NCBI RefSeq assembly: GCF_001651855.1
Contig: NZ_LNQC01000062.1
Coordinates: 1-64,000 of the forward strand
DNA: 64,000 nucleotides
Source of the DNA: Sinorhizobium americanum
Lineage (GTDB): Bacteria > Pseudomonadota > Alphaproteobacteria > Rhizobiales > Rhizobiaceae
Direction of reading: 5' to 3'
Below, one piece after another: positions 1-17,406 of the stretch (the first letter of the stretch is position 1; every line of letters starts with the position of its first letter). The position numbers were made by a program, and so were the translations under genes. The notes below the pieces were generated by a model. The model worked only from the letters and a program-made list of their open reading frames with translations, ran no database searches and was not told where the DNA came from.

Positions 1-486
1 GCCGCCGTCGACCTCGCGGGTGACATTGACCTTGCCATCACCGAGCTCGACCTTGGAGGCGAAGGTGCCCTGGGCCCAGCCGAGCAGCGCCGACAGCATC
101 TGGCCGGTCTGATTGCTGTCATCGTCGATCGCCTGCTTGCCGACGATGATCAGCCCCGGCTGTTCGGCTTCGGCAACGCCCTTGACGATCTTGGCGACAG
201 TGAGCGGCTCGACCTGGTCCTCGGTCTCGACGAGGATTGCCCGGTCGGCACCCATGGCGAGCGCGGTCCGTAGCGTCTCCTCGGCCTTGGCCGGGCCGAT
301 CGACACGACGACAACTTCACTCGCCTTGCCGGCTTCCTTCAAGCGCAAAGCTTCTTCGACCGAGATCTCGTCGAACGGGTTCATCGACATCTTCACATTG
401 GCAAGCTCGACGCCCGAACCGTCCGCCTTCACACGGATCTTGACGTTAAAGTCGACGACCCGCTTAACAGTGACCAAGATTTTCAT
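1..486 (-). CDS. etfB: Electron transfer flavoprotein beta subunit, 3' end cut by the window
   Basis: The reading frame runs from an ATG at 486 off the left edge, giving 162 codons of an EtfB/FixA-type protein that begins [26 protein letters not shown] stands just before the start. Typical EtfB features are visible: the N-terminal VTVKRV strand, the MNPFDE segment, [13 protein letters not shown], and [14 protein letters not shown], the AMP/FAD-contact loop. In the family it pairs with EtfA and carries electrons from a flavoprotein dehydrogenase to ETF-quinone oxidoreductase. It lies 43 bp downstream of the cupin and StcD-type demethylase on the same strand, so it probably takes electrons from that demethylase. 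The etfA partner would lie outside the window. Confidence 0.9.
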
Positions 487-529
487 GCTGGTTTTCCTAG
501 TTCATTGAGATGCTCTAGCTGAGGACTTG

Positions 530-1132
530 CTAAGCCGGCCCGTTCGCCAGCAGCACCCAGAAGGCAAAGAGCGGTGTGCCGACCGAGCGCATGGCGTGCC
601 GGATTCCCGGCTCGTTGTAGAAGGAGCCGCCGACGCCCGGCGAGAACCAGGCGCCCTGCCCCTGCCGGAATTCTCCCTCCGACAGGACGAGGTAGACTTC
701 CTCGGGCGCGTGGTCATGGTCGGGATAGCGGACGTCGGGCGCCATGAGGGTGACGCCGAACCACAGGTCCCGCCGCTCCTCTAGCCCCCCGGGACCGATG
801 ATCATCGCATTGGCGTGGCCCTCGAAGAAATTCTCGCTCTCGGAGCCGTCATAATTTGTCCGGCGCCGCCAACCGAGCAGCGGTTCGATCGCCTTGAACC
901 GATCGACCAGGCGGCGGAGCGGCTGGTGTTGCGTCTCGATGGCGAGCGCCGCGTCGAGGTGGAAGCACACCGGCAGCCTGCTTCCGGGGCCGGGTCTTTG
1001 CGCACCCGGCACTTCAAGCGCAGAAAAGATCTGCGCGATCGACCGGCGCGATGCGGGAGCCTGCGCGAACTGGTCGAATGCCGCGGAGGCGGCGTCGACG
1101 AATAACTGAAGGGCTTCGCTCCGAGCTGTCAT
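530..1132 (-). CDS. DddQ/DddL-like cupin, candidate DMSP lyase
   Basis: A 200-residue single-domain cupin with GAGGGAA before its ATG. Metal and catalytic residues can be picked out: Tyr136, His139, His141, Glu145, Tyr147 and His179. The spacing of Tyr136, His141, Glu145, Tyr147 and His179 matches, as I recall it, Tyr120/His125/Glu129/Tyr131/His163 of the DMSP lyase DddQ, and the length is right for that family. Such enzymes cleave dimethylsulfoniopropionate to acrylate and dimethyl sulfide. It sits between stcD and etfB in one probable operon, so a related job on a betaine-like compound is equally possible. Cupin fold: sure. DMSP cleavage: inferred from residue spacing only. Confidence 0.72.
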   Translation of the reverse strand: MTARSEALQLFVDAASAAFDQFAQAPASRRSIAQIFSALEVPGAQRPGPGSRLPVCFHLDAALAIETQHQPLRRLVDRFKAIEPLLGWRRRTNYDGSESENFFEGHANAMIIGPGGLEERRDLWFGVTLMAPDVRYPDHDHAPEEVYLVLSEGEFRQGQGAWFSPGVGGSFYNEPGIRHAMRSVGTPLFAFWVLLANGPA

Positions 1133-1185
1133 TGCGGTTCCCTCGTAGGACCAGCAGGCCGCTCCCGGCGACCCCCGGCCCGGTT

Positions 1186-16378: not shown

Positions 16379-16397
16379 GGGCTGATTCCATATGCGG

Positions 16398-16481
16398 TAG
16401 CTTCAAACTGAGCTAAATTATTCTCGCCCGTGAACCCGTTTGACAACGGCATAAAATTTCATCTTGATTTAGGTGAGCTAA
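16398..16481. promoter_or_regulatory. LysR-type binding sites between stc2 and lysR
   Basis: TTAGGTGAGCTAA at 16469-16481 is a textbook T-N11-A box with TTAG/CTAA arms. A second dyad, TAGCT-N8-AGCTA, lies at 16398-16415 close to the stc2 start. Both share the GAGCTAA word. They fit a recall site near lysR and an activation site near stc2. Confidence 0.55.
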
Positions 16482-16527
16482 CTTCAACCGTCTGCACACC
16501 GACAAGTACGATCCATTAGAGGTCCGG

Positions 16528-17406
16528 ATGCCAAGCCCCTATGACTTCTCTTCGATGACCGCCCTTATCTGCTTCGAAGCGGCGGCGCGAAACGCGAGTT
16601 TCAAGAAAGCCGCACAGGAAATGAATGTGACGCCGGCTGCCGTCAGCCACCAGATCAAGGCGCTGGAGATGGACCTCGGATGCAGCCTATTCCTCCGCCA
16701 CCACCGCGGCGTCGAACTCACGGAGAAAGGAGCGTTTCTGTTCATCGCGATCCAGCGGGGGTTCGAGTCGATTTCCGAAGCCGTCACCCAGATGCGCGAG
16801 CGCCCGGAAACGGTCGACGTCACGGTCGGGACCACGACGGCCATCAGTTCGCTGTGGCTCACACCAAAGATCTCGGCCTTCTGGAAGATCCATCCCACCG
16901 TTTCCGTTTCGCAGCTCGTCAGCGACGTGCCGGGAATGACCGGCCGCTGCGATCTCAGCATCCATTACGGCAATCCGCTGGAGAACGGCGTCGAATACCG
17001 CAAACTCTTTCAGGACCACATCGTGGCTATGGGAACATCCGGTTTCGCCGCCGAGCATGGCATTTCCAGGCTTGAGGATCTGATCAAGGCACCGTTGATT
17101 CACTCGAGCAGCAAGGAGACAGGCTGGACAACCTGGGACGACTGGTTTGCCGCGCTTGGACGCCCGGCACCCAAAGGTCGTAGCTTTTATGTGAACAATT
17201 ACATGATAGCCCTTCAGGCTGCGCAGGACGATGTCGGGGCGGTGCTTGGCTGGGACGGGTTGGTCGGAAGCCTGATCGAGGAAAGACGGCTGGTGAGGCT
17301 TGTTCCGGAGAGCATCCCCTCGCCCGTGGCCTTTCACCTGAAGATCCACCCGCGTGCTTCGTCAAAGGCTCGCCTTTTCGCGGATTGGCTCGTTGCAAGC
17401 GATTGA
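16528..17406 (+). CDS. LysR-family regulator, divergent from stc2
   Basis: 292 residues. The N-terminal helix-turn-helix (FKKAAQEMNVTPAAVSHQIK, about 27-46) is followed by the linker helix and a periplasmic-binding-like effector domain, resembling the GcvA subgroup. GAGGTCCGG precedes the ATG. It is divergent from stc2 with LysR boxes between, so it is probably the activator of the Rieske demethylase/reductase pair in response to a betaine. Confidence 0.9.
   Translation: MPSPYDFSSMTALICFEAAARNASFKKAAQEMNVTPAAVSHQIKALEMDLGCSLFLRHHRGVELTEKGAFLFIAIQRGFESISEAVTQMRERPETVDVTVGTTTAISSLWLTPKISAFWKIHPTVSVSQLVSDVPGMTGRCDLSIHYGNPLENGVEYRKLFQDHIVAMGTSGFAAEHGISRLEDLIKAPLIHSSSKETGWTTWDDWFAALGRPAPKGRSFYVNNYMIALQAAQDDVGAVLGWDGLVGSLIEERRLVRLVPESIPSPVAFHLKIHPRASSKARLFADWLVASD

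Follow-up and report, generated by a model that had tools for sequence, protein, structure and literature searches.

Can a bacterial gene block join the demethylation of a betaine to the dehydration of a hydroxylated proline? The question is raised by positions 1–17406 of a 64,000-nucleotide stretch of Sinorhizobium americanum (the window), which starts at base 1 of contig NZ_LNQC01000062.1 (contig C62) of a genome of 6.65 Mb in 82 contigs. The original prediction, made from the letters alone, read the block as one route that takes 3-hydroxyproline betaine through two demethylations to trans-3-hydroxyproline and on to proline. Profile searches with Pfam and NCBIfam place 16 genes in the block. 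It is a stachydrine (proline betaine) degradation locus of rhizobia and Paracoccus, and it also encodes a trans-3-hydroxyproline dehydratase (t3HypD). Our reading, in which we place about even confidence, is that a proline-betaine cluster took up a trans-3-hydroxyproline branch and could lead 3-hydroxylated proline betaine to proline. The gene content, the families of the products and the presence of the linkage in further genomes are direct observations.

Demethylation genes and betaine importer

The Rieske oxygenase Stc2 (15140–16378, minus strand; PF00355, PF00848) matches the solved chains 3vca and 4qup with 888 bits. It is followed on the same strand by its reductase Stc4 (14075–15136) and adjoined on the plus strand by a LysR-family protein (16528–17406; PF00126, PF03466). 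Stc2, Stc4 and LysR are 90, 93 and 85% identical to the S. meliloti proteins, and the gene order is the same. The difference from S. meliloti lies in the surroundings: the RCAM1750 record (31 kb, the only one scanned) has no tblastn match to the other window genes, t3HypD included. In the available part of PMC4014116, 3vca is given as a stachydrine demethylase, and the accessible text of PMC7948474 groups Stc2 with Rieske enzymes that demethylate proline betaine. The Rieske pair is a Stc2/Stc4-type stachydrine demethylase by predicted activity.

The second demethylase is an HpbA/StcD-like FMN-FAD enzyme for N-methylproline (1186–3222, minus strand; PF00724). Its counterpart in P. pantotrophus, with 74% identity, is annotated as HpbA, N-methyl-L-proline N-demethylase. 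The beta subunit of an electron transfer flavoprotein (ETF; 1–486, minus strand; PF01012 and NCBIfam ETF models) is truncated by the contig start; in two relatives (L043, L044) ETF alpha and formaldehyde detoxification genes come after ETF beta. An OpuA/ProVWX-type importer with PF04069, PF00528 and PF00005 domains occupies 4887–7892 on the plus strand. It consists of a betaine-type substrate-binding protein, SBP1 (4887–5879; PF04069, 218 bits), a permease (5984–6862; PF00528, with TIGR03416/ProW matches below the cut-off) and a ProV-family ATPase (6855–7892; TIGR01186, 336.6 against a cut-off of 326.6 bits). The start codons of SBP1 and of the permease are not fixed. The importer, the Rieske demethylase with its reductase and the N-methyl demethylase with ETF had all been named in the original prediction and are borne out here, as is the dehydratase described below.

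The Hpb pathway of Paracoccus (HpbA, HpbD) is attributed to Kumar et al. 2014, as cited in PMC4113996. Its cluster in P. pantotrophus, like the window, combines HpbA, the Rieske pair, an OpuA importer, a ProC-like protein, a cupin and ETF, and in the window the HpbA-type demethylase, Rieske pair and betaine importer stand side by side. The window differs in lacking 4-hydroxyproline genes and HpbD epimerase, the relatives of which lie only on contig C45 (67% identity), and in having t3HypD. As a side observation, 11 of the 16 relatives fetched through the cupin gene next to HpbA (L045, L047–L052, L054, L055, L057 and L058) carry a second HpbA paralogue of 30–33% identity, which adjoins a diverged Ldh_2 gene in 10 of those 11.

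The t3HypD cassette

The dehydratase gene (12112–13140, minus strand) lies well above the NCBIfam equivalog cut-off (NF047722, 639 against 550 bits) and its product matches the solved chains 4k8l, 1tm0 and 4k7g. The motifs MSGSNS and DRSPTGTG provide the Ser/Thr pair of the characterised type, which the accessible text of PMC4113996 (eLife 2014) gives for B9K4G4. The window protein is thus of the cluster 3 kind characterised for trans-3-hydroxy-L-proline degradation in that part of the paper, where the Ser/Thr t3HypD and its reductases are described. The window differs from that system in two respects: no canonical pyrroline-2-carboxylate (P2C) reductase adjoins t3HypD, either of the ornithine-cyclodeaminase-family (OCD) or of the DpkA type, and the neighbours are betaine genes.

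Three more genes accompany t3HypD. A GntR-family (FCD) regulator (13345–14028, plus strand; PF00392, PF07729) is divergent from it and is 82% identical to the GntR that adjoins t3HypD in P. pantotrophus. A racemase-family protein with a Ser/Cys pair (10781–11833, plus strand; PF05544) is 38% identical to t3HypD, with 320 bits against the 550-bit cut-off of NF047722. A second betaine-type binding protein, SBP2 (9442–10443, minus strand; PF04069), is 68% identical to SBP1 and matches 7yle with 219 bits. The four genes lie between the Ldh_2 and stc genes in the window and in Ensifer BR816. We read them as an inserted cassette, because in two relatives (L047, L058) the Ldh_2 gene directly adjoins the stc genes or their LysR without it. 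In genome G015 part of GntR alone is left between Stc4 and Ldh_2 (L043:1173–1520), as though the cassette had been lost. Megablast divides the block further into one conserved unit (1–7711) in Rhizobium and Sinorhizobium plasmids, a second unit of Ldh_2 and Ser/Cys racemase genes in Rhizobium, and a third, Stc4-Stc2-LysR, in S. meliloti. Because genes lie on both strands and TetR, GntR and LysR regulators are present, the block is not a single operon.

The Ser/Cys protein invites another explanation, in which the second half of the locus serves 4-hydroxyproline betaine: the Ser/Cys protein would epimerise 4-hydroxyproline, and t3HypD would be secondary. Cluster 9 Ser/Cys members are 4-hydroxyproline epimerases in the available part of PMC4113996. 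The HpbA core of Rhizobium N324 and R. etli adjoins genes of the 4-hydroxyproline kind for a dihydrodipicolinate synthase-family protein (DHDPS), an aldehyde dehydrogenase and an FAD oxidoreductase, a trio that Rhizobiaceae genome G161 also holds. The window stretch, however, has no DHDPS, aldehyde dehydrogenase or oxidase genes, their relatives being on contigs C64 and C49. The Ser/Cys protein is below the cut-off of all six NCBIfam families that it matches, and it is only 36–44% identical to the two racemase-family proteins of the TAL182 cluster and 38% to the window t3HypD. We consider this explanation unlikely.

Six arrangements join t3HypD to betaine genes

Six arrangements bring t3HypD together with HpbA, Stc2 or both; they come from Ensifer, from two further Rhizobiaceae and from Paracoccus. 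The first is that of the window and Ensifer BR816 (L072). The second, GntR//t3HypD-OCD//FdhA-HpbD-Stc4-Stc2, is shared by P. pantotrophus and a Paracoccus metagenome-assembled genome (MAG; L096); P. pantotrophus alone adds importer, HpbA, cupin and ETF, which makes up the whole set. Three P. pantotrophus plasmid records cover 80% or more of the cluster seen in L096. Paracoccus SMMA_5 has the third (t3HypD-OCD//ProC//HpbA), and in the fourth, from Paracoccus DMF-8 (L116), t3HypD lies about 25 bases behind HpbA. In the fifth, from G161 (L164), t3HypD shares the strand of HpbA and begins one base past its stop, opposite TetR-OCD, and in the sixth, from a Rhizobiaceae MAG (L087), TetR-t3HypD faces HpbA. 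In two of the six, therefore, t3HypD is directly behind HpbA. This recurrence supports a connection between betaine demethylation and trans-3-hydroxyproline dehydration.

A reductase of the OCD or DpkA type is commoner at linked loci: 5 of 7 have one no more than 4 kb from t3HypD, against 18 of 80 unlinked loci (Fisher P 0.013). The comparison of 87 loci includes three linked ones (L164, L171, L173) that were chosen for their context, and this is one of the points to be set against our reading below.

Candidates for the P2C reductase

The original prediction placed the P2C reductase in the block, and here the sequence points elsewhere. The gene concerned encodes a diverged Ldh_2-family protein (8058–9059, plus strand; PF02615) in which alignment with canonical relatives shows GPPALG in place of the DGSLSHG/DECHSHG-type motif. 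The SHG motif is altered in 11 of 11 diverged relatives and retained in 12 of 12 of the canonical type; we take its Ser and His to be catalytic. Since it is without the SHG motif of canonical Ldh_2 (MLD2) members, we reject this protein for the P2C step of the route; it was probably the wrong gene. The diverged subfamily likely has another reaction or a non-catalytic role. In 14 of 16 neighbourhoods the demethylase core has a close homologue of this protein nearby, and no t3HypD was seen in those fetched stretches.

A credible candidate is an OCD-type P2C reductase on contig C35 of the same genome (NF004793, 457 against 322 bits). In Ensifer BR816 a canonical-motif Ldh_2 gene directly behind t3HypD (L072:11262–12284) would be the P2C reductase, by position and family. 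It is missing from the window, where 203 bases beside the t3HypD end still align at 82%, and the rest of the window genome yielded no close copy of it (other matches have 28–29% identity). For the OCD genes of L096 and L164 the P2C reductase is the best NCBIfam model, but with 287 and 270 bits against the cut-off of 322. The tautomerase of the original prediction finds no counterpart, as no such family is among the Pfam and NCBIfam matches listed for the 16 genes; open reading frames in short gaps lay outside that scan.

A second reductase gene in the block encodes a ProC-like pyrroline carboxylate reductase (4013–4807, plus strand; PF14748; TIGR00112, 169.6 against 196.75 bits). It follows a TetR-family regulator (3369–3998, plus strand; PF00440) that is divergent from HpbA and kept in relatives. 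Both the ProC-like and the diverged Ldh_2 proteins are conserved with the demethylase core and have no step assigned to them. This would fit a scheme in which t3HypD comes first, dehydrating N-methyl-3-hydroxyproline or the betaine ahead of demethylation, and one of the two reductases works on the resulting N-methyl pyrroline. The position after TetR is in keeping with it, since it is occupied by ProC in 14 of 16 relatives, by t3HypD in L087 and by the OCD reductase in L164, as if one slot. We nevertheless regard such a scheme as very improbable. Both reductases are kept in clusters with no t3HypD in the fetched stretch, and the Ldh_2 protein is without the conserved Ser and His. Some t3HypDs that are not linked to betaine genes are as much as 89% identical to that of the window, and the window protein has the Ser/Thr pair of an enzyme characterised on free hydroxyproline.

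Frequency of the linkage and the case for two independent units

The strongest competitor to a joint route is that the block consists of two neighbouring but independent units: a cluster for stachydrine, and a cassette under GntR control that handles free trans-3-hydroxy-L-proline. Both would lead to proline, and no compound would go through the two. We think this possible, though less likely than not. The observations in the next two paragraphs count against a tight single pathway; the rarity of the linkage and the GntR gene among them also favour two units.

Linkage is rare overall. HpbA or Stc2 is in reach in only 4 of the 80 closest t3HypD loci from named genomes (L072, L087, L096, L116), these being the best 80 of 406 stretches that encode relatives. 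A sample of 151 Rhizobiaceae genomes has t3HypD in 46 and an HpbA-like gene in 86, at the limits used. The two are within 20 kb in 2 of the 36 genomes with both (counted by hand from two lists), the window included, and in 2 of 20 when only copies at least 68% identical are considered. With a genome size of 5 Mb, the expectation is about 0.29 linked genomes (P 0.03), but one of the two observed is the window, which chose the question. Among 248 genomes of the family of the Paracoccus MAG, t3HypD occurs in 71 and a Stc2 relative in 21, and they lie within 20 kb in 1 of 10 genomes with both, which is the source of the query itself. Many of these genomes are drafts, and genes on separate contigs decide nothing about linkage. 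None of the 16 relatives fetched through the cupin has t3HypD in its 20 kb; the t3HypD of BR816 falls just outside (L072). Of 36 plasmid records with t3HypD, six were opened. P. pantotrophus (found through the L096 cluster match) and Paracoccus SMMA_5 are linked, and Peteryoungia, Gemmobacter and Aminobacter are unlinked. In the Pararhizobium A13 record, which has no annotation, tblastn found neither gene. The Rhizobiaceae and Paracoccus-family counts speak against any general rule that t3HypD goes with betaine genes, and we reject such a rule.

Several single items are also unfavourable. The HpbA of DMF-8 (L116:7944–9976), directly before t3HypD, spans two frames and may be a broken gene or a misassembly. 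A tree of 86 rows (84 t3HypDs and 2 outgroups), with 7 rows labelled linked, needs 6 changes of the label, at least 3 of them forced by well-supported (starred) branches, but in 74 of 500 reshufflings of the labels the number was as low or lower. One labelled locus (L089) owes its label to FdhA and 4-hydroxyproline genes alone and is without HpbA or Stc2. A canonical P2C reductase of either OCD or DpkA type was not found on the contig of the window, and the reductase gene proposed originally was probably the wrong one. GntR adjoins t3HypD in the window, and it does so too in loci of Rhizobium and Paracoccus that have no demethylase genes; its inducer may therefore be free hydroxyproline.

Other observations speak for a joint route. 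There are six different arrangements of the joined genes, two of which place t3HypD immediately after HpbA, and the window cassette itself includes a betaine-type binding protein. Amino-acid-type ATP-binding cassette (ABC) importer genes are near t3HypD in 30 of 80 unlinked loci, a point in favour of two independent units, and in 0 of 7 linked loci, a point against them; the difference is weak and not significant (Fisher P 0.09), with a small reference set. Linkage is uncommon, yet present in six arrangements. The joining of demethylation and dehydration in the original prediction thus gains from other genomes, where the linkage recurs; the passage of one compound through the whole route, and 3-hydroxyproline betaine as the substrate, do not gain in this way. 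The comparison with other genomes supports the central idea more than the window does.

A DMSP-lyase-like cupin beside HpbA

The original prediction had passed over four genes, the ProC-like reductase, SBP2, the Ser/Cys protein and a cupin of the dimethylsulfoniopropionate (DMSP) lyase family (DLL; 530–1132, minus strand). The cupin belongs to PF16867 (205.5 bits, with the metal-ligand residues of the family), matches 5cu1 and 4b29 weakly, and retains the motif HxHxxxExY...H, the residues of which we take to be metal ligands. Copies at least 75% identical adjoin HpbA in 16 of 16 relatives fetched; one more genome with such a copy, G023, had no long fetch and is outside the 16. In P. pantotrophus a cupin with 39% identity also adjoins HpbA. 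In rhizobia as in P. pantotrophus, the cupin is placed between HpbA and ETF (530–1132; L171:25957–26538; L042:12616–13221). This genomic setting argues for a betaine role. The stretches fetched from G161, DMF-8 and SMMA_5 yielded no cupin, which is therefore dispensable for the HpbA-t3HypD arrangement. As a substitute for HpbD epimerase it is ruled out, since P. pantotrophus holds both.

Two further copies were seen. On R. etli p42f a second cupin beside ETF alpha (L042:10074–10766) has lost the metal-ligand motif (PDHVQTQPRAF against PDHDHAPEEVY). The window genome has another DMSP-lyase-like cupin on contig C49 (L064, G000:C49:42195–42770), near an aldehyde dehydrogenase and a betaine-type importer. 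We know of no assigned function for rhizobial DMSP-lyase-like cupins. The chain closest to SBP2, 7yle, is presumably a DMSP-binding protein, and this likeness together with the cupin leaves room for a sulfonium substrate as a possibility.

Proposed route and its meaning

In the route that we propose, the importer with two binding proteins would take up proline betaine and 3-hydroxylated proline betaine. Stc2/Stc4 would strip the first N-methyl group and HpbA with ETF the second, each as formaldehyde. Proline from proline betaine would pass directly into central metabolism, while t3HypD would dehydrate trans-3-hydroxy-L-proline to P2C, which a reductase encoded on another contig would reduce to proline. 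The identity of the substrate, the order of the steps, the involvement of SBP2 and the regulation or co-regulation of the genes we infer. The compound is real: in the available part of PMC6200017, 3-hydroxystachydrine and stachydrine together make up as much as 2% of the dry leaf of Maerua edulis. Since the two co-occur there, one route for both is chemically sensible. The example does not tie this bacterium to such a plant.

The single pieces are known, and their joining is most likely a variant of the Hpb/stachydrine pathway. Among the matches listed, in a search that left most subscription journals outside, no paper joins betaine demethylation to 3-hydroxyproline dehydration. In the accessible text of PMC4113996 the word Rieske is absent and betaine appears four times, never joining the two halves. 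More tentatively, with a confidence somewhat short of even, we suggest a new pathway for 3-hydroxystachydrine, in which a second, dedicated binding protein would serve OpuA-type import, and two N-demethylations, the t3HypD step and P2C reduction to proline would follow. It would have arisen several times by addition of a t3HypD cassette to Hpb/stachydrine machinery, in some hosts with a cupin of a new betaine-related activity.

If true, this would close a gap between two known half-pathways and would explain how soil bacteria use a betaine that is abundant in some plants. Compact loci such as those of Paracoccus SMMA_5 and G161 would allow the route to be tested with few genes. The rhizobial DMSP-lyase-like cupins would be tied to N-methylproline demethylation, which would give them a concrete substrate class.

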